In this document: positions 6,513 through 22,424 of the stretch, in pieces
How the letters are laid out: each line of letters begins with the position of its first letter
How positions within the stretch are numbered: the first letter of the stretch is position 1
Source of the DNA: Sulfurospirillum diekertiae
GTDB taxonomy: Bacteria > Campylobacterota > Campylobacteria > Campylobacterales > Sulfurospirillaceae
Reading direction: 5' to 3'
Length of the DNA: 64,000 bases
NCBI RefSeq assembly: GCF_002309535.1
Contig: NZ_CP023275.1
Span: forward strand, 2,108,001 to 2,172,000
Translations under genes and position numbers: made by a program
Notes under the pieces: model-generated
The model's input: only the letters and a program-made list of their open reading frames with translations
Told to the model about the DNA's origin: nothing
Databases searched by the model: none

Positions 6513-7304
6513 ATGTCTTCGTCATTCTCTTTGGTATCCATATCCCTTCCAACCCCTTTTGCTAAACATGAAATAGAAACACTGCTGGATTGCTCTTTAA
6601 AAAAAGGAATCGAAAAAGCCTTTTACTGGCAATACCGTGAAACGTTCTTAGTCTATACCCAATTCAATGTCCTCACCTTTATCAACTGGGGAAAAGAGTC
6701 CATCTATAAAGCGCTTACCAAACTGGGTTTAAAGCATGCAGATACGTTTGAACAGCACACTATTTTTCAAGACTACCCAATTCTCATCGATCCCGATTTA
6801 GACGTTACATGTAAAGTCAGTAATGAAAGAATTATCCTAAAAGAACCTCTCTCGCTTTACCTGATCATCATTGCGCTTGTTGTCTCTCAAAGTGTTGGAC
6901 TGGAAAAGTATGAGCAAGACCTCAACGTCCATTTTGATAAGAGCCAACAACTGCTCGATCTCACCCAAAGTTACGCACTGCTCAAACGTTCCAAACTCAT
7001 CGAATTTGCGCGAACATTAATGAATATTCAGCATGGCATGGTCAGTGATCTTTTGTTGTTAGATAAACCCAATATTTTATGGGATAACGAAGAAGCGGAA
7101 AATCTTTACAACAGACTGTCATCAACACTTGAACTCAAAGATCGTTTTGAAATTGTTGAGCATAAACTGACCCACCTCAAAGAGGACATTAGTATGTCGC
7201 TCGATCTTTTTAACCAAAAACACAGTGAATTTTTAGAGTGGATTATTATAGGATTGATCGGTTTTGAAATCGTAATGGGGCTGATCGAATTTTTTAAACA
7301 TTAA
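6513..7304 (+). CDS. RMD1/DUF155 family protein
   Basis: 263 aa. The DUF155 (YagE/RMD1) family is known in fungi and bacteria; eukaryotic members are mitochondrial or membrane-associated, and the bacterial role is unclear. The family pattern is visible: a mixed N-terminal half, a central hydrophobic stretch (LYLIIIALVVSQSVGLEKYE), then helices, and a single C-terminal membrane segment (IIIGLIGFEIVMGLIEFF) after the invariant-looking EFLEW. The start at 6513 is chosen because AAGGAG lies 6 nt upstream; an in-frame ATG at 6492 has no such site. One HIP-type palindrome lies at 6804-6815, read as Val-Thr-Cys-Lys. Confidence 0.75.
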   Translation: MSSSFSLVSISLPTPFAKHEIETLLDCSLKKGIEKAFYWQYRETFLVYTQFNVLTFINWGKESIYKALTKLGLKHADTFEQHTIFQDYPILIDPDLDVTCKVSNERIILKEPLSLYLIIIALVVSQSVGLEKYEQDLNVHFDKSQQLLDLTQSYALLKRSKLIEFARTLMNIQHGMVSDLLLLDKPNILWDNEEAENLYNRLSSTLELKDRFEIVEHKLTHLKEDISMSLDLFNQKHSEFLEWIIIGLIGFEIVMGLIEFFKH

Positions 7305-7379
7305 GACTCAGCCACCAATTTTTTGACGATCTTTCGCACGAGTGGAACAACGGTTAAAACCGCAGGAAAGGCGATGAAA

Positions 7380-8207
7380 TCAAACTTTTTCTCCTAAAAT
7401 ACGCACTTCACGTTGTGGGTAAGGGATGGTGATATGGTTTACATGTAAAGTGTTATAGAGGGCAAGATTGACTTCAAATTGTGTCTTAAAATAGCTCTTG
7501 GTCGGAACCCAATAGCGAAGCCCCAATTCAATAGAACTATCGCCAAACTTAGCAATACCTACGACAGGTTTGTGCGTATTGCTGACCTCTTTAAAGCCCG
7601 ATAATACCTCTTTGATCAAGGCAATCGCTTTAGTGGGGTCTTCCTCGTAGGCTACGCCAATACTTGACTCCACAATGCGAAATTCAAAAGAGTTGACCAA
7701 CACATCACCGATCATCTTTTTATTGGGGATGGTGATGAGCTCTTCATCTTCATTGCGAAGCACGGTATAGGAGAGTTTGATCTCTTCTACCACGCCGTAA
7801 AAACTACCGATGGAAAGGGTGTCACCCACTTTAAACGGACGGCTGATGATAAGAAGCACCCCAGCTGCATAGTTCGAAACACTGCCTTGAAGTGCTAAGC
7901 CAGCAGTTAAGGAAACAGCGCCAATAGCCGCGACAAAAGGCGCAATAGAAATGCCTACTTTTCCAAGTGCTATGATGATCATTGCAGCAAAAATCAGCAT
8001 TTTGACGACACTTGCCACAAATTTTGAAAGGGTCATGTCAAAATGATGGCTTTCAAAAAGGCGCATCAAAAGAGTATAGGTATACTTTGCCGCAAACCAT
8101 CCGATAATGACGATAATCAGCGCCCCAATCAGTTGAAAACTATAGTTGGTTAAAAACTCAATAGCGATATTGTAAAACTTTTGAAGGGTTTGCAGTTCTT
8201 TGTCCAT
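7380..8207 (-). CDS. small-conductance mechanosensitive channel (MscS family)
   Basis: Opens on membrane tension to release solutes in hypo-osmotic shock. Three membrane segments lie at about 18-38, 62-85 and 88-115. The third, Gly/Ala-rich helix (VAAIGAVSLTAGLALQGSVSN) lines the pore, followed by the MscS beta domain (SRPFKVGDTLSIG) and the C-terminal cytoplasmic vestibule. At 275 aa it has the size of E. coli MscS. The gene ends at a T5 run (7386-7390 on +). Removing one base there would add about 25 codons with no stop up to the neighbouring gene (see findings). A palindrome TTTACATGTAAA at 7438-7449 encodes Leu-His-Val-Asn. Confidence 0.9.
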   Translation of the reverse strand: MDKELQTLQKFYNIAIEFLTNYSFQLIGALIIVIIGWFAAKYTYTLLMRLFESHHFDMTLSKFVASVVKMLIFAAMIIIALGKVGISIAPFVAAIGAVSLTAGLALQGSVSNYAAGVLLIISRPFKVGDTLSIGSFYGVVEEIKLSYTVLRNEDEELITIPNKKMIGDVLVNSFEFRIVESSIGVAYEEDPTKAIALIKEVLSGFKEVSNTHKPVVGIAKFGDSSIELGLRYWVPTKSYFKTQFEVNLALYNTLHVNHITIPYPQREVRILGEKV

Positions 8208-8344: not shown

Positions 8345-11116
8345 ATGAAAGTTTCAAATTTCACGTTTGAGGATTTTTCATCGCTGAAAAATCGTATTGA
8401 ATCCGGGGCTTTTGAAAATGAACCATCCCTTTTAGTGCAATTTTTTGATGGTCGCAACGACGAACAGCTTTTTAGCGATCTTGCCTCCACACTTTCGACG
8501 TTGCTCCCTCAAGCAACGATCTTAGGTGTGACTACAGCAGGAGAAATCCTCGATGGGAAAATGCTTGAAAACACCGTCACACTCTCTTTTTGTGCCTTCA
8601 CACATACAAAACTCATTCCCCTTTATACGCGCCGTTGTAATTTTAACGGTGGAATTTCTGTCGTTCAACATCTCAGTCATAATGTCACAGCGGCCATCTT
8701 TTTCAGTGAAGGCTTGCAAGGTGAACCTGAAGAATTTTTAAGTGGTGTTAATTTTATACGCAAAGATTTAACCATTGCAGGTGGTGCAGCAGCAGATTAT
8801 GGGAGGTTTGCGAGAACGTTAATTGCTTTAAATGGTACCGTGTACACTCATGGCGTTGTGGGTGTGGCATTTGACAATCTCTCTTTAAAAATCCTCAATC
8901 ATTGGAAACTTAACTGGAATCCTATTGGCAAACCGATGGTCATTACAAAAGTGGTCAACAATACGATTTTTGAGCTTGATCAAACACCTATATTTGAGGT
9001 TATTCGCCACTATTTTGGAGATGATGTTGTTGCTCATCTTCCTTCCAGTATCGTCAAATTTCCGCTCATTAAAACCGAAAAAGGTGTTTATATTGCCAGA
9101 GCGCCTGTCGCTGTAACGGAGAATGCCCTCGTTTTTGCAGGTAATTTTAAGGCAGGCGATCGTGTTCGTTTTGGTATCGCCAATGTTGATGAAATCGTAG
9201 AAAATAATGATGCAAGGCTTCTTCTTAAACCTGAAGTTGTCTGGATCTATTCGTGTATGGGGCGTAAAGCGTTTGCCGGTGAAATTCTTGAGAGTGAATT
9301 TCAGACCTACAATATCTTAGGCACAACCTGCGGCTTTTTTAGTTATGGTGAATTTTTCAAAACACCTCGTTCTTCGCAGATGATGAACCTCACCACGACT
9401 GTTTTGGCACTGAGTGAACAAGAAGAGCTCGAAACATTACCCCAACCGAGTAGAAAACAGTTGGATGAAAAACACGAGAACATTGCAGTCATGTCCAGAC
9501 TGACCAATGCCGTCGTGGATGAATTGGAACATACGATTAAAACACTTGATGCCTATAAACTAGCCCTCGATGCGAACTCTATTGTCTCGAGAACCAACAC
9601 AAAAGGCATTATCACCTATGTCAATGACCTTTTTGTCAAAATTTCAGGCTACTCAAGAGAAGAGCTTCTTGGTAAGTCGCATAACATCATTCGCCATCCT
9701 GATGTCCCTGATAGCACCTTTAAAGAGATGTGGACGACCATCAAAAATGGTCAAGTATGGAAAGGGCTTATCATCAATAAAGCCAAATCAGGAGAGCCTT
9801 ACTATGTCGATACAACCATCATTCCGCTTTTTGATGAGAACAAACAAATCGTCGAGTACATCTCTACACGCAATGACCTAACCAAAATCATCAAACAGCA
9901 AAAACAAATTCGCGAACAGACAACCGATGCTTTAACCAACCTTCCCAACAGAGTGAAATTTTTTGAAGATATTGCGGTATCCAAAAATCCGATTATCGCT
10001 CTAATTAACATTGATAATTTTGGTGAAATAAACCGCTTCTACGGGTTTGAAAGTGGCAATACACTCCTTAGAGAATTTTCCGCTCTTTTTCTTGAGATGT
10101 TAAACTTCACGCCCTATTCGCTTTATAAACTTGAAGCAGACAACTTTGTTATTTTTGGGGATGGAGAAGATAATGAGATATTTTGCACGACCATGGAAAA
10201 ATTTATTAACCAAATCCATACTCATCAATTTTTAGCAGATATGCAAGGCATTACCACACGTATTAGTGTGGGAATTGCGCTTGAGAAAGAACAAATTCTT
10301 TCACATGCAGAAGAAGCCCTTAAACAAGCACGAATGCGTAATCTAAACTGGATGCTCTCTAGCGAAAAAGAAGAAGCCATCCATCTGCAAAACTTTCAAA
10401 TGCTCCATACACTTAAAAGTGCCATTGAACAGGGCAGAATTGTTCCCTACTACCAAGCGCTTGTTCATCTCAAAAGCAACAAAATAACCAAATATGAAAG
10501 CTTAATACGCTTGATTGATGAAAATGGCAAGGTCTATTCGCCCTACTTCTTCCTCGAAGTCGCTAAAAAATCAAAGTATTATTTAGCCCTCACGCGTATT
10601 ATGATTGAAAAAACACTTTTGGATTTTGCCCATCGAGAAGAAAATGTTGCCATCAACCTTTCGGTGGAAGACATTGAAGATGCAGAGACTGTTTTATTCA
10701 TCGAAAATGCGATTAAAAACTTTGTAGATCCTTCACGCATCACCTTTGAATTGACCGAAACGGAAGCCATCAAAGACTATATCACGATCATCTCTTTTAT
10801 CGCATCGGTCAAAGCGTTAGGTGTTAAAATCGCCATTGATGATTTTGGAAGCGGCTACTCAAACTTTGCCTATCTCGCGCAATTTAATGCCAATATTTTA
10901 AAAATAGATGGTACCATCATCCAAAAAATAACAACCGATTCCAACGCATATCAAATTGCTGCTGCGATCAATGACTTTGCAAAACGACTCGGATTGCAAA
11001 CCGTTGCAGAGTTTGTCTTTGATGAAGCGACCAACGATGTTGTTAAAGATCTCAACATTGACTTTGCACAAGGCTACTTTCACGCTGAGCCTCTGCCGAT
11101 TGAAAAATTGCCGTAA
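8345..11116 (+). CDS. FIST sensor - PAS - degenerate GGDEF - EAL protein
   Basis: A 923-aa cytoplasmic multidomain signalling protein with no membrane segment. Order: FIST N domain (about 20-215) and FIST C domain (about 215-360), a family proposed to bind small ligands such as amino acids; PAS domain of the Aer type (about 405-500; ISGYSREELLGKSHNIIRHPD); GGDEF-like domain (about 530-665); EAL domain (about 680-915). The GGDEF signature is replaced by EADNF near residue 596, so cyclase activity is unlikely. The EAL domain reads ESL at the start but keeps the NLS, ELTE, DDFGSGYS, KIDG and AE motifs, so it may still hydrolyse cyclic di-GMP. The ligand is not known. It is flanked by its own promoter and lies next to a cupin gene. 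Confidence 0.85.
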   Translation: MKVSNFTFEDFSSLKNRIESGAFENEPSLLVQFFDGRNDEQLFSDLASTLSTLLPQATILGVTTAGEILDGKMLENTVTLSFCAFTHTKLIPLYTRRCNFNGGISVVQHLSHNVTAAIFFSEGLQGEPEEFLSGVNFIRKDLTIAGGAAADYGRFARTLIALNGTVYTHGVVGVAFDNLSLKILNHWKLNWNPIGKPMVITKVVNNTIFELDQTPIFEVIRHYFGDDVVAHLPSSIVKFPLIKTEKGVYIARAPVAVTENALVFAGNFKAGDRVRFGIANVDEIVENNDARLLLKPEVVWIYSCMGRKAFAGEILESEFQTYNILGTTCGFFSYGEFFKTPRSSQMMNLTTTVLALSEQEELETLPQPSRKQLDEKHENIAVMSRLTNAVVDELEHTIKTLDAYKLALDANSIVSRTNTKGIITYVNDLFVKISGYSREELLGKSHNIIRHPDVPDSTFKEMWTTIKNGQVWKGLIINKAKSGEPYYVDTTIIPLFDENKQIVEYISTRNDLTKIIKQQKQIREQTTDALTNLPNRVKFFEDIAVSKNPIIALINIDNFGEINRFYGFESGNTLLREFSALFLEMLNFTPYSLYKLEADNFVIFGDGEDNEIFCTTMEKFINQIHTHQFLADMQGITTRISVGIALEKEQILSHAEEALKQARMRNLNWMLSSEKEEAIHLQNFQMLHTLKSAIEQGRIVPYYQALVHLKSNKITKYESLIRLIDENGKVYSPYFFLEVAKKSKYYLALTRIMIEKTLLDFAHREENVAINLSVEDIEDAETVLFIENAIKNFVDPSRITFELTETEAIKDYITIISFIASVKALGVKIAIDDFGSGYSNFAYLAQFNANILKIDGTIIQKITTDSNAYQIAAAINDFAKRLGLQTVAEFVFDEATNDVVKDLNIDFAQGYFHAEPLPIEKLP

Positions 11117-17338: not shown

Positions 17339-17664
17339 TCTAGCCCCCTAGTTTGTTTATGTAATATTAATATTATTTAGCTTTGAGTCATTTATTTTTT
17401 CTATATATTTTGTTGTTGTGCCAATTGAATTATAGCTTTTATTTTTCTTTACATTGGTGTGTATGAACATGCTACTTCTTCAATAAGTGTTTCTATGTTG
17501 AATTAGCACAGTATTTAGAGCATTCAAACACTCAAATGATGCAAATTACCTGTAAGGTCAAATTAAAACCATCAATACGAATATTTTGGTTTATTTTTAG
17601 GGGTAGGTAGAGGGATTTTCAGTTTTTTAAAAAGTGCTTTGAAAGTGCCTAAAATAGGGGCTTT
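17339..17664. other. 326-bp noncoding stretch left of the mobile element
   Basis: AT-rich, no ORF. Holds the promoter region of the three-gene module (palindrome AATATTAATATT near 17364) and a weak hairpin AAACCA/TGGTTT (17566-17592) followed by ATTTTTAG. Probably the ancestral sequence downstream of tRNA-Ser before the element inserted, or the edge of an older insertion. Confidence 0.4.
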
Positions 17665-17682
17665 GTGGCGGACAGAGAGGGA
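17665..17682. repeat. attL: 18-bp direct repeat of the tRNA-Ser 3' end
   Basis: GTGGCGGACAGAGAGGGA is identical to 22334-22351, which includes the CCA end and acceptor/T-arm part of tRNA-Ser(GCU). It lies directly upstream of the integrase, the usual layout for elements that integrate at a tRNA 3' end and leave a truncated copy at the far end. Confidence 0.88.
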
Positions 17683-17691
17683 AAGCCCTCT

Positions 17692-19063
17692 ATGACTGCC
17701 ACCAAACCCTTAAATTTAGGGATTTTAACCCATTATCATAATTCAAACTATGTCAATTTTACCAAAAAAGACATTAAACAAAGTGCTAATACTTCTTTAA
17801 GACTATACAGAGTTGAAAATATGTATTATTACAGAAGAACAATAAATAAGATAACTCATAGGATTAGTCTTAAAACAACAGATTTACAAAAAGCAAAACT
17901 TTTAAGAAATGAATTAAATCTATTAAAAAATGAGGAGTTTGTAAAAATGGCAAAAGGGAAAGATTACAAAAAAGTTATCAAGGCTGAACTAAATACAAAC
18001 CTTGAATTTGATGGTGAGACCATGGAAAAAATCATGGAATTAGGCATTAGAGCTTTAGGCAAAAATAGTGCTTATGCAAATGTTTTAAAAGAAAAACAAT
18101 TAACAGAACAAACAATCTATAAAAATTTCTGATAAAAATGACTTAGATGAAATATCAAAAAAGCTTGATAGTATCACCTCTTCTCAAATTAATCCTTCTG
18201 TGCAACAAACAAAAGAGCCATTAACATTTAAACAACTAGAAGACTTGTTTTTAAAACAGAAAGAAAAAGTTGGCAAAGTTGGACTTAGTAGCATTAAAAT
18301 GTATAAAGCAGCTCTTAAAGACTTAATGGAGTATTTTCAAAATATAAATATTAATGAATTAAAATATCAAGACTTTGAAAATTTCCAAAATTTCCTTATT
18401 GCTAAAGGACTTAATAATAAAACAATTAATAACAAAATCACATATTTGAGGATGTTCCTTGATTATGCAGAAAAATTTGAACTTATTGAAAAAAACTTTG
18501 CAAATAAGCTAGAAATGCTCAAAGAAGAAGTAAAAGAAAAAGAAAATTTCACTGGTGAAGAAATTAATTCATTGTTGGAAAATGCTTCTCAAGAATTTAA
18601 AGACTTTCTAAAAGTTGCCATGTTTACAGGCATGAGATTACAAGAAATCTTAGCTATAAAAGAGATTCTTACAGATTCAAAAACAAAAATTAAATACATT
18701 CAAGTTGGAGACTCAAAAACTGCTAGTGGAATAAGAAAAGTGCCATTACATGGAGAACTTTTAAATATTAAATTTCCTCTTTTTGATATAAAAAATGATG
18801 ATGTAAGAACTTTTAGTACAAACATAGGGAAAAGAATAAACAGGTATATAGAAACTATTGCAAAAGAAAAAACTATTCATACCTTTAGAGCTACATTTAT
18901 AAATAAAATAGTTAATAACTTTCCAGATAGAATTGAAATTGCTCAAGAATTAGTTGGACATTCCAAAGGTAACAAAACTTTAATATTAAACACATACTCT
19001 AAAGAATTTGATATTAGTTTGAAAAAAGAGATTGTTGATAGTGTTAAATATGGTCAAAATTAA
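17692..19063 (+). pseudogene. tyrosine recombinase (integrase), split by a frameshift
   Basis: Two ORFs together make one phage-type integrase. The first (to the TGA at 18130) carries the N-terminal arm-type DNA-binding region, with the Campylobacterota-typical YYYRRTINK and RISLKTTDLQKAKLLR. The second, in the next frame, carries the core-binding domain (about 18210-18500) and the full catalytic domain: Arg in GMRLQEI, Lys in GDSKTASG, HTFR, GH in LVGHSKG and the nucleophile Tyr in LNTYSKE. The shift lies at the A5 run 18121-18125; one base change would restore a protein of about 455 aa. It could be real inactivation, a sequencing error or programmed frameshifting. The ATG at 17692 has a purine-rich GAGAGGGA upstream inside attL. 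Confidence 0.8.
17745..17760. repeat. short direct repeat, possible integrase arm site (left)
   Basis: AAACTATGTCAATTTT, identical to 22207-22222 near the other end; a variant AAACTATGTCAGTT is at 22239-22252. Position just inside both att sites suits arm-type recombinase binding (inference). Confidence 0.4.
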
Positions 19064-19139
19064 GCTAAAATCAGCCCTTAAATGGAATTATTTTGGAAAA
19101 TTCAAGCAAATATAGGGATTTCAAAAAAAGCAGAGAATT

Positions 19140-19157
19140 AGGGCTATTTTTAGCCCT
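19140..19157 (+). terminator. hairpin downstream of the integrase
   Basis: AGGGCTA and TAGCCCT form a 7-bp stem with a T4 loop, 77 nt after the integrase stop, followed by AGCCTTTT. Plausible terminator. Confidence 0.45.
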
Positions 19158-19211
19158 AGCCTTTTAACAGTAGATTCTCTATATAAAAAATAATAGTTAT
19201 CTTTTAAAAGA

Positions 19212-19415
19212 GAATAATAGTTATTTTGAGTATATAAAAAATATTATTATTTTTATATTTCCACCTTAGTATTTATTATGAATATAGAGTTATTAGCATA
19301 ATAAGAATTATTGAATAGTAGTTATTTTAAGTATATAAAAAAATATCACTATTTTTATATTTCCACCTTAGTATTTATTATGAATATAGAGTTATTAGCA
19401 TAATAAGAATTATTG
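19212..19415. repeat. two tandem copies of a 101-102-bp AT-rich repeat
   Basis: Copy 1 at 19212-19313 and copy 2 at 19313-19415 are nearly identical, with an unchanged core from the CCACCTTAG block through ATAATAAGAATTATTGAATAG. A fragment of a third copy starts at about 19415. Noncoding. Only two units and no spacers, so not a CRISPR array. Confidence 0.85.
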
Positions 19416-19527
19416 AATAGTAGTCATTAAAAGTATTTATTATTAATTATGTAAACTCAATGAAGCTCTACAAATTAGTTATTAACTTTATTACAAAAAA
19501 AATAGTTATTCTTTGTTATATAACATA

Positions 19528-19571
19528 GCTTTAGAAAATAATGCGACTTGTTTAGCATTATTTTCTAAAGC
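19528..19571. repeat. 17-bp perfect inverted repeat
   Basis: GCTTTAGAAAATAATGC at 19528-19544 pairs exactly with 19555-19571 across a 10-nt loop. One of three strong hairpins in a row. Confidence 0.85.
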
Positions 19572-19626
19572 GTATAGTTTATTACAGTAGATTCTAAAAT
19601 ATATAATAAAAAGATTTATTGGATTA

Positions 19627-19655
19627 CAAACAATTTTTAGAATAAAAATTGTTTG
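19627..19655. repeat. 13-bp perfect inverted repeat, 3-nt loop
   Basis: CAAACAATTTTTA pairs with TAAAAATTGTTTG around GAA. Confidence 0.85.
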
Positions 19656-19656
19656 A

Positions 19657-19694
19657 GTTTAGAACATGTTTACAAAGTAATAAATGTTCTAAAC
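19657..19694. repeat. 11-bp perfect inverted repeat
   Basis: GTTTAGAACAT at 19657-19667 pairs with ATGTTCTAAAC at 19684-19694 across a 16-nt loop. Starts 2 nt after the previous hairpin, and its right arm overlaps a smaller palindrome TAAACAGACTGTTTA (19690-19704). Confidence 0.8.
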
Positions 19695-19760
19695 AGACTG
19701 TTTAAAAAAAAATAACAATTTATCATAGTAGAATCTGCTATATATTAATCTATATCAGAT

Positions 19761-19801
19761 GAGGGTCCGAGGAGGTGGTGGGGTGTCCCCTCCCAGCCCC
19801 C
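19761..19801 (-). repeat. GC-rich palindromic motif, copy 1 of 3
   Basis: A block of G and C in a region otherwise very AT-rich, centred on GGGGTGTCCCC and followed by CAGCCCCC. Resembles copies at 20339-20372 and 21640-21665. It lies downstream of the minus-strand ORF at 19972. Confidence 0.6.
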
Positions 19802-19971
19802 AAAAAACAACTTGTCAAAAAATGGCTTTTTTAGCATAATTTTTATGAATCTATACAAATATATGGATTTTTAAAAAAGGATGGCAAAGAGGTGCATTTT
19901 TATAGCTTAAATGACACCTTTTAAAAGATTAGTGAGACTTCAATTCATTGATAACATGACAAGAGAGCTTT

Positions 19972-20244
19972 TTATCTTGTTAAATCATAATTTTTGATTG
20001 ATTCTCTTTCTATTGTTTCACTTAGAGCTTTGAATTCTTCAAAATCACTCAATTTTATATTTTCCATGATTTCATTGTATAAGATTATTTTTTGTTTTTC
20101 TTTATCCTGTTCTGTTTTAAGTTTTGACAATATTTTTTTGATTTTCAATAATTCTTGTTCATCCAATTTTTTTTGGTTTTCAAAGAATTTATAAAATTCC
20201 TCATCTTCAAACAATTCAAGTAACTTCAAAAGTATAAATATCAT
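19972..20244 (-). CDS. small coiled-coil protein of unknown function
   Basis: 90 aa, rich in Lys, Glu, Leu and Ile, predicted all-helical with heptads (about 20-85). No recognised domain. AGGAGA 4-5 nt before the ATG supports translation. Lies downstream of the relaxase gene in the same direction, separated by about 180 bp with a GC-rich palindrome. Could be an accessory mobilisation factor or a regulator; nothing in the sequence decides. Confidence 0.5.
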   Translation of the reverse strand: MIFILLKLLELFEDEEFYKFFENQKKLDEQELLKIKKILSKLKTEQDKEKQKIILYNEIMENIKLSDFEEFKALSETIERESIKNYDLTR

Positions 20245-20338
20245 ATTTTCTCCTTTTTTTAATTTGAAATCAATTATACATTAAATTTTATTTAAGTATT
20301 TTTTTTATGAAAAAAAGAACTGTTCCTCCTTTTAAGGT

Positions 20339-20372
20339 AGGGGGTGGAGGGGTCTCCCCCCTGGCTCTTTAT
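20339..20372 (-). repeat. GC-rich palindromic motif, copy 2 of 3
   Basis: Contains GGAGGGGTCTCCCCCCTGGC between the relaxase gene end and the small coiled-coil gene. Same layout as the other two copies (G4-5, short centre, C4-6, then a GCC/GGC word). Confidence 0.6.
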
Positions 20373-20424: not shown

Positions 20425-21531
20425 TTATCTCTCTCTATCTTTGTTTTTTTGGCTCATTTTTTGGGCTTGGATTTGATTGTTCAAATTGTAAATAGTTGTA
20501 TTTTGTTCACTCATTTTTTTCTCTAATTTCTCAATTTGCTCATCTTTTTCCTCAAGTTTTTTGTGAAGAAAAGTATTAGCTTGTTCAGCCCTCTCAAGGT
20601 CTTTTTTGATGTCTTCAATATTTTCAAAATCTTGTATCATAGTTTGGGCTACTTTTTTAATTTCTTGTAAGTCATTGACTTCTTTTTTTAATGTCTCATT
20701 TTGCAGTTTTAGCTCATCAAATTTCTTGATTTTATCTTTTTCAGTTTGGGGCATAATGTCATATTTTAAGGCTTTCAAGACCTCTTTTTTGATGTTTTGT
20801 TTTAAAAGTTTATTATCTATCTTTTCAGAAAATAGCCCTTTTTCAATGCTGTTTTCAATAGCACAGGAAGAACTTTTTTCTAGATATTGATTAATGTCTT
20901 GAGAAACCAATTTTTTAGCACTAATATAGTATTTTCTCTCAAGATGCTCCTTACCCTTGATTTCTTTTTTTTCTCCTCTTTTGTAGTCCAATCCACAATC
21001 TTGAAAACATTTGGCAGCCAAATCCTGAAACTTTGAAAAGTCATTTTTTTTCAATGTTCTCAAGACACTTTTTTCCTTTTCAAAATTGTAATTGTAGAAA
21101 CAAAGATGAGCATGAAAATTGTTTACATTGTCATCTCCATTTTTGTATCCCTCATCTCCATGAAAACTAAAAAAAATACTGGTAAAGCCATATCTTTCTG
21201 ATATTTTTGTCATAGTCAATTTGAGGGCATTTTGTAGCTTTTCATAGCCATTTTTTTGAGCTAGAATCTTTTCTGTTTGTTCTCTTCCAAGAGCTGCCAC
21301 AAATTCCACAATGGTATTCTCTTTCCCTTGCTCTCTTGTGTTCTTTCTTTTTAAAATTTGGGCTTTTCTGTTGCTTAAATTCTCAAATTTTTCAAATTCA
21401 TAGTTAAAATTTTGATAGCTTGATGATTTTAATTTATATGTCACATTTGACAGTCTAAAGTCATGTTCAAATATTTTTTTAAAATCATCATTTTTGTAGT
21501 ATTTTGCATGTAGTGAAATATAATTACTCAT
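20425..21531 (-). CDS. MobV-type relaxase (Mob/Pre family)
   Basis: 368 aa. Nicks the transfer origin and leads the single strand in mobilisation. The metal-binding signature of MobV relaxases is visible: HxDE (SFHGDE) followed by HxH (NNFHAHLCF) at about residues 123-143. The N-terminal half is the relaxase domain; from about 255 to 360 there is a long coiled coil (repeated Lys/Glu/Leu heptads), common in Pre/Mob proteins for oligomerisation or partner binding. No T4SS genes are nearby, so it would act with a helper conjugative element. Its upstream region holds an oriT-like hairpin (21617-21635). Confidence 0.8.
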   Translation of the reverse strand: MSNYISLHAKYYKNDDFKKIFEHDFRLSNVTYKLKSSSYQNFNYEFEKFENLSNRKAQILKRKNTREQGKENTIVEFVAALGREQTEKILAQKNGYEKLQNALKLTMTKISERYGFTSIFFSFHGDEGYKNGDDNVNNFHAHLCFYNYNFEKEKSVLRTLKKNDFSKFQDLAAKCFQDCGLDYKRGEKKEIKGKEHLERKYYISAKKLVSQDINQYLEKSSSCAIENSIEKGLFSEKIDNKLLKQNIKKEVLKALKYDIMPQTEKDKIKKFDELKLQNETLKKEVNDLQEIKKVAQTMIQDFENIEDIKKDLERAEQANTFLHKKLEEKDEQIEKLEKKMSEQNTTIYNLNNQIQAQKMSQKNKDRER

Positions 21532-21603
21532 ATTAATCCTTTTTGAATTTATATGAGTTAATTAGTAGTTTGATTTTTATTTTGTGAGTTTGTTAATTTT
21601 CTT

Positions 21604-21635
21604 GTCTAGCACACTCAGCACACCTAAAGGTGATG
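21604..21635 (-). other. candidate transfer origin (oriT)
   Basis: Directly upstream of the relaxase gene. On the minus strand it reads a hairpin (GCATCACC...GGTGTGC with a one-base bulge) followed by GAGTGTGCTAGACAAG. This recalls the hairpin-plus-nick layout of MobV origins such as pMV158, whose nick lies in TAGTGTGTTATAC. Similarity is by eye and partial. Confidence 0.4.
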
Positions 21636-21639
21636 CAGT

Positions 21640-21665
21640 ATGTTGGGGAGACCCCAAGCCCCCTC
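21640..21665 (-). repeat. GC-rich palindromic motif, copy 3 of 3
   Basis: TTGGGGAGACCCCAAGCCCCC; the inner TTGGGGAGACCCCAA pairs as TTGGGG/CCCCAA around AGA. Lies between the YbjQ-like gene and the oriT candidate. Confidence 0.65.
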
Positions 21666-21693
21666 ATTTTCACTATAGAGAACTATCTTTAAA

Positions 21694-22122
21694 TTACTTA
21701 TATTTTACTGCTGTCCCTGTATAAAAATATGCATTACGTGAGTCTATGTTTTTAGCATTTCCATAAACAGATGTAGTGGTAGCTAATTGAAAATTCACAA
21801 TTGCATGTGCATCCATTTCTAGGGCTTGTTCTAAACACTTAACAACAGCATCATCTTGATAATGTGCTGCACCCTCAACCATTCCTAATGCAATATAACT
21901 TCTTCCAATATCAGATGTATTAAAGAGTGGAATTTTTTTAGTTAGTTCTTTTCTTCTTGCTTTTGTATTTGCTGCATCAATCTCATTTGATACAAAGAAG
22001 GTTATTGCTGTAAGTATAAGACCTATTAAAATTTGAAAAAATATCCCTATATGATCTAACAAACTAAAATAACCAAGAACAGCATATGCACCAACTAAAA
22101 CTATCAGAGTGTTTATAATCAT
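21694..22122 (-). CDS. membrane-anchored YbjQ-like domain protein, element cargo
   Basis: 142 aa. Two membrane segments (about 2-22 and 27-45) with a short loop, then a cytoplasmic domain of about 75 residues. The C-terminal pattern CLEQALEMDAHAIVNFQLATT ... AYFYTGTAVKYK resembles the YbjQ/DUF74 fold, whose members end with a G-T-A-V strand. YbjQ proteins were proposed to bind heavy metals, without firm proof. The gene is the only candidate cargo of the element, next to attR. No motif for toxicity or defence is seen. The family call is by pattern only. Confidence 0.5.
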   Translation of the reverse strand: MIINTLIVLVGAYAVLGYFSLLDHIGIFFQILIGLILTAITFFVSNEIDAANTKARRKELTKKIPLFNTSDIGRSYIALGMVEGAAHYQDDAVVKCLEQALEMDAHAIVNFQLATTTSVYGNAKNIDSRNAYFYTGTAVKYK

Positions 22123-22333: not shown

Positions 22334-22351
22334 GTGGCGGACAGAGAGGGA
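22334..22351. repeat. attR: 18-bp repeat within tRNA-Ser
   Basis: Identical to 17665-17682; covers the CCA end, acceptor stem and part of the T-arm. Confidence 0.88.
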
Positions 22352-22424
22352 TTTGAACCCTCGGTCAGGTTACCCCGACGCATCCTTAGCAGGGATGTGG
22401 TTTCAGCCACTCACCCATCTGTCC
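22335..22424 (-). tRNA. tRNA-Ser (GCU)
   Basis: 90 nt with a long variable arm, as expected for tRNA-Ser. Acceptor stem GGACAGA/TCTGTCC, discriminator G, encoded CCA. The anticodon loop is CTGCTAA with anticodon GCU (reads AGC and AGU). The T-loop GTTCAAAT is present. The gene is intact although an element uses its 3' end as integration site, because the element carries a matching end. Confidence 0.95.

Follow-up and report, generated by a model that had tools for sequence, protein, structure and literature searches.

A hairpin-rich spacer in a small integrative mobilizable element of Sulfurospirillum: a possible strand-conversion site

Introduction

Why does a mobile element of only 4.67 kb hold 908 bp of ORF-free DNA folded into perfect hairpins? 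This question is raised by a locus in Sulfurospirillum diekertiae, analyzed here within a stretch of 64,000 nucleotides (hereafter the window; positions are counted from its first letter), where a hairpin-rich spacer lies at 19064-19971 within an integrative mobilizable element (IME) that is inserted in tRNA-Ser(gct). Such a length would hardly be kept without use in so small an element. Among the explanations considered below, the one that fits best, and that we tentatively favor while stopping short of calling it probable, is that the spacer is a strand-conversion origin (sso-like) of a minimal IME.

The element and its genes

The ends of the element are marked by direct copies of GTGGCGGACAGAGAGGGA, one at its far end (17665-17682) and one (22334-22351) overlapping the 3' end of the tRNA-Ser(gct) gene (22335-22424, minus strand), an arrangement that is expected of an IME. 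Both att copies were placed from the sequence together with breakpoints in a second genome of the same species (G020), which matches the right flank at 98.3%, starting exactly at 22334, and the left flank at 92%, ending at about 17663. In this genome the same two flanks enclose about 12.8 kb of other DNA (L040), with a different integrase among its genes, and the ends of the IME can therefore be placed. The preliminary description of the locus had spoken of a mobile element that excises; the att repeats and the breakpoints support this, although the integrase of the window copy is frameshifted. In addition, AAACTATGTCA is repeated at 17745, 22207, and 22240, and these copies are candidate integrase arm sites.

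From left to right, the element consists of a tyrosine integrase gene on the plus strand, the 908-bp spacer, and three genes on the minus strand, namely a 90-aa ORF, a relaxase, and a 142-aa ORF. It thus has its own relaxase and no mating-pore genes, as an IME should. The integrase gene (17665-19063, plus strand; Pfam Phage_integrase and tblastn) is frameshifted between about 18012 and 18143 and appears as two ORF pieces (17665-18132 and 18200-19063, plus strand), and an intact relative gives two tblastn hits in different frames on the window copy. Given this frameshift, the window copy lacks the functional site-specific recombinase of an IME and may be a relic or defective member.

It had been stated that no Rep-type gene is present, and this is borne out; the element does, however, carry a protein of 368 aa with an HGDEG...HAH motif and a coiled-coil C-terminus (20425-21531, minus strand), which can be called a MobV-like relaxase. 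The HxDE...HxH metal-binding motif of MobV relaxases is present, and H124, D126, E127, H140, and H142 are invariant in an alignment of six relatives. The protein itself has no direct Pfam match, Mob_Pre (PF01076) included, and a related protein of a small Vibrio plasmid matches Mob_Pre (E 5.3e-5), slightly under the Pfam cut-off. Comparison of the relaxase domain with solved structures gave coiled-coil hits only, and a structure predicted without an alignment (pLDDT 39) was set aside. Among viral contigs, phages, and plasmids, searches turned up no relative of the spacer and none of the relaxase beyond a distant one on each of three small Vibrio/Pseudomonas plasmids.

The 90-aa ORF (19972-20244, minus strand) has counterparts of like length near the relaxase in related elements, with identities of 17-33%. 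The 142-aa ORF (21694-22122, minus strand) is 67% identical to its counterpart in the sister element described below, and its product was not found outside these two elements among 399 genomes of the order. Between this ORF and the relaxase gene, upstream of the latter, lies a candidate oriT region (21532-21693), its position being predicted and its sequence partly conserved in the sister element.

The segment just to the left of the IME (17600-17664) recurs elsewhere in the genus, sometimes near integrase hits, which suggests that several elements have accumulated at tRNA sites of one kind.

The structured spacer

The spacer lies between convergent genes, and the longest ORF starting within it encodes 37 aa. 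The earlier claim of an ORF-free region is thus confirmed, except that the region ends at 19971 and not at 19810. Within it, three perfect hairpins are found: hairpin 1 (19528-19571), with a 17-bp stem and a 10-nt loop, GACTTGTTTA; hairpin A (19627-19655), with a 13-bp stem and the 3-nt loop GAA; and hairpin B (19657-19694), with an 11-bp stem and a 16-nt loop that contains TTTACAAAGTAA. A tandem array with a period of 102 and 2.2 copies (19212-19436, plus strand) is also present, the duplicated units 19236-19337 and 19338-19439 being 94% identical. The motif AGTAGA(T/A)TCT occurs three times, as AGTAGATTCT at 19169-19178 and 19586-19595 and as AGTAGAATCT at 19727-19736 (all plus strand); the whole 64-kb window has four occurrences, against 0.17 expected. 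A GC-rich block with GGGGTGTCCCC, similar to a block in the sister element, is located at about 19765-19805. The hairpins, the 102-bp duplication, the three motif copies, and the GC-rich block had all been listed in the preliminary description and are present where it had placed them, and their clustering holds as well, over about 575 bp rather than 500 bp.

The hairpins are far in excess of chance expectation. In 300 dinucleotide shuffles of 19064-19971, hairpins with a stem of at least 10 bp numbered 0.13 on average and two at most, with a longest stem of 14 bp, against three hairpins and a longest stem of 17 bp in the actual sequence, and none of the shuffles contained an adjacent hairpin pair such as A and B. 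Folded as single-stranded DNA, the spacer is predicted to adopt a stable multi-hairpin structure of the kind expected of an sso (z = -6.1), and no shuffle was as stable. The whole window contains nine perfect hairpins (stem of at least 10 bp, loop of at most 30 nt), three of which fall within one 170-bp stretch. Measured against a background of about 378 kb of related loci, the density of hairpins with stems of at least 10 bp is 3-4 per 0.9 kb in the spacer vs 0.23 per kb.

The sister element

Just one other genome among the 399 of the order, that of Sulfurospirillum cavolei UCH003 (locus L034), encodes a close counterpart of the relaxase (68%) together with one of the 142-aa protein (67%). 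This sister element sits in tRNA-Ser(gga), has an intact integrase of 504 aa, and shares the gene order of the window element, with a syntenic spacer at L034 7255-8191. In a blast comparison, the window spacer matches the sister element at its edges only (78% over the first 77 bp or so and 74% over 66 bp at the right edge). The middles of the two spacers cannot be aligned, and automatic alignment of the spacers or of the A/B pairs is not meaningful there.

Nevertheless, the sister spacer folds equally strongly (z -6.4). It contains perfect hairpins of 17 bp with a loop of 3 (L034 7466-7502), 12 bp with a loop of 16 (L034 7505-7544), and 14 bp with a loop of 6 (L034 7668-7701). In both elements, therefore, a loop-3 hairpin and a loop-16 hairpin stand in this order 1-2 nt apart (the A/B pair), and the two 16-nt loops, GTTTACAAAGTAATAA and TATTTACGCAGTAAAT, have TTTACnnAGTAA in common; this coincidence of loop lengths (3 and 16) was noticed afterwards and not predicted. 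Two hairpins with stems of at least 10 bp and at most 2 nt apart occur nowhere else in the approximately 378 kb of related loci. A comparison of the stems across relatives had been proposed in the preliminary description. In our own alignment, built from the loops outward, 16 of the 24 stem pairs of the A/B hairpins are changed on both sides with pairing intact, in a comparison that has only two close members. The hairpin layout is thus retained in the sister element with its stems replaced, and this suggests that the folded shape matters. The earlier judgment that the structures are unlikely to be drift in AT-rich DNA is likewise supported, both by the shuffles and by this retention of architecture despite replaced sequence.

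The likeness does not extend to every feature. The order of the hairpins is not the same in the two elements. In the sister element, an 18-bp perfect inverted repeat (L034 7397-7414/7563-7580; 0/300 shuffles) encloses the first two hairpins, whereas a corresponding closing stem in the window, which motif copy 2 (19586-19595) could form with 19729-19739 around hairpins A and B, is not significant (235/1000 shuffles). The motif AGTAGATTCT recurs in the sister spacer at L034 7362, as the full palindrome AGTAGATTCTACT.

At its edges, the window spacer has a left repeat (19071-19130, plus strand; 78% similar to the sister element) and a right repeat (19836-19879, plus strand), with 73% similarity between 19087-19130 and 19836-19879. 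Similar repeats are also found at both spacer edges of the sister element (L034 ~7270-7340 and 8107-8165). These diverged direct repeats bracket the spacer as if its middle were a replaceable cassette. Furthermore, GC-rich GGG(G)TnnCCCC-like blocks with a C-rich stretch nearby occur in about three copies per element in AT-rich surroundings, at 19765-19805, 20336-20368, and 21640-21668 in the window and at about 8005-8035, 9860-9890, and 10565-10590 in L034.

Possible functions of the spacer

A shape that persists when its sequence is exchanged suits a site acting in the form of folded single-stranded DNA, and a strand-conversion site is favored because retained structure with replaced sequence has been described for sso's. 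The element has a relaxase and no Rep, which supports this reading. The MobV-like relaxase would nick the circle of the element, so that a single strand is transferred or copied; the single-stranded spacer would then fold into the A/B hairpin pair and one further hairpin, plus the long closing stem in the sister element, and host RNA polymerase or primase would start the complementary strand at the folded spacer. We infer that single-stranded DNA is the active form and priming the function. Against the strand-conversion reading stands the fact that there are only two close members, the one in the window with a broken integrase. In addition, the spacer resembles no known plasmid or phage sequence, its two strands fold about equally as RNA so that neither is singled out, the hairpin order differs from that of the sister element, and the closing stem falls short of significance in the window. 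TAGCGW is the CS-6 box of ssoA. This box is absent from 19064-19971, and given this and the lack of a match among plasmid records, the spacer is termed sso-like with respect to the way in which it is proposed to work and is not assigned to any known sso class.

Several other explanations have to be weighed. The spacer might give rise to a structured noncoding RNA, antisense or regulatory, that controls the genes or the transfer of the element. Strong folding and double-sided changes are expected of an RNA too, and Rfam holds nothing similar (nothing above threshold in Rfam 15, and two chance-level eukaryotic hits, E 0.34-0.38, in a permissive search), so that an undescribed RNA is conceivable. 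However, in either element one strand folds about as stably as the other when treated as RNA, the best hairpins have no G-T pairs (though the search was for perfect complementarity), and promoter-like sites are no more frequent than expected (33 vs 27.8); such an RNA appears unlikely. Nor do we think it likely that the palindromes are functionless, that is, made and kept perfect by template switching in a relaxed, AT-rich spacer, the element being often single-stranded, while point mutations replace the sequence. The stems are perfectly Watson-Crick paired, as template switching would give without selection, and the tandem duplication indicates that slippage occurs in the spacer, but this account sits poorly with the hairpin density of 3-4 per 0.9 kb vs 0.23 per kb in related loci, with the recurrence in both elements of an A/B pair with loops of 3 and 16 and TTTACnnAGTAA, and with the retention of AGTAGATTCT.

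Two explanations remain. The spacer could be a mobilization site proper, either a second oriT or a set of hairpins recognized by the relaxase or the 90-aa protein. Hairpin clusters adjoin other relaxases found with the same profile (plasmids L093, L094, and L095, and L078, L086, and L087), L039 has such a cluster upstream of its relaxase, and in L037, a more distant element whose relaxase is likewise distant, a 21-bp closing stem (11/1000 shuffles) encloses two hairpins, one of them with a 9-bp stem and a loop of 3, an architecture whose similarity we count as a lead only. The region that is partly conserved with the sister element, however, lies upstream of the relaxase, the usual place of an oriT, while the spacer comes after both the relaxase gene and the 90-aa gene, which makes a mobilization site improbable. 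Least probable by far is a promoter active as single-stranded DNA, like Frpo of the F plasmid, for early gene expression in the recipient. The Frpo stem-loop restores -10 and -35 boxes, to which RNA polymerase is recruited (PMC9849209), and the spacer would resemble it in being folded single-stranded DNA usable by RNA polymerase; unlike Frpo, it has no element gene directly downstream on either strand, as the flanking genes converge with their 3' ends. The same position, with the 3' end of a gene on either side, argues against an ordinary promoter region.

Comparison with known systems

The strand-conversion reading draws on what is known of single-strand origins. The ssoA folds as single-stranded DNA that RNA polymerase recognizes and primes (PMC5703833), and an sso of pBAA1 with a new sequence but retained structure is stated in PMC4595007 to have stayed functional. 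An sso can also be part of an integrative element, as ICEBs1 demonstrates, and its function there matters for stable acquisition after transfer (PMC4595007). The spacer is similar to the sso's of rolling-circle plasmids and to sso1 of ICEBs1 in that it comprises a few hundred bases of non-coding DNA with multiple hairpins, carried by an element that would pass through single-stranded DNA, with structure apparently counting for more than sequence (PMC4595007, PMC5703833). There are also differences: the classes in PMC5703833 come from Gram-positive plasmids, the spacer shows neither plasmid similarity nor TAGCGW, and priming at the spacer is putative.

As an element, the IME resembles the MobV-type IMEs Tn4451, Tn5520, and IMESag-rpsI (PMC5704250), which also combine an integrase with one relaxase, lack mating-pore genes, and integrate site-specifically. 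Unlike these, it has a Campylobacterota host, a size of 4.67 kb, a long structured spacer, a relaxase whose divergence precludes a direct Pfam match, and, in the window copy, a broken integrase. Within the same order, the small plasmids L093, L094, and L095 have a distantly related MobV-like relaxase with hairpins beside it, but their hairpins lie upstream of the relaxase gene and no sequence similarity to the window spacer was found.

If the spacer is a strand-conversion site, it would offer a small testable example outside Gram-positive bacteria along with a signature for shape-based searches; if it is not, it would clearly exemplify the renewal of hairpins in a mobile element. That it might represent a class of Campylobacterota strand-conversion sites defined by shape, with an adjacent loop-3/loop-16 pair, TTTACnnAGTAA in the second loop, and stems replaced wholesale between sisters, is a speculative proposal and rather unlikely at present.

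Further observations

When a covariance model was derived from only the A/B pair of the window, it missed the sister structure as such and was dropped; its weak hits elsewhere (best E 0.0056) included none with adjacent perfect hairpins. An enrichment of CTTG/CAAG in hairpin loops (21 vs 6.5 expected) was a post hoc finding with some redundancy and no specificity for relaxase loci, and was left unused. Finally, in the small plasmids, a multi-hairpin structure lies directly upstream of the MobV-like relaxase (L093 3067-3180) and is identical in L094 and L070, with 171 bp shared without change by three genomes; this structure is probably the oriT of these plasmids.
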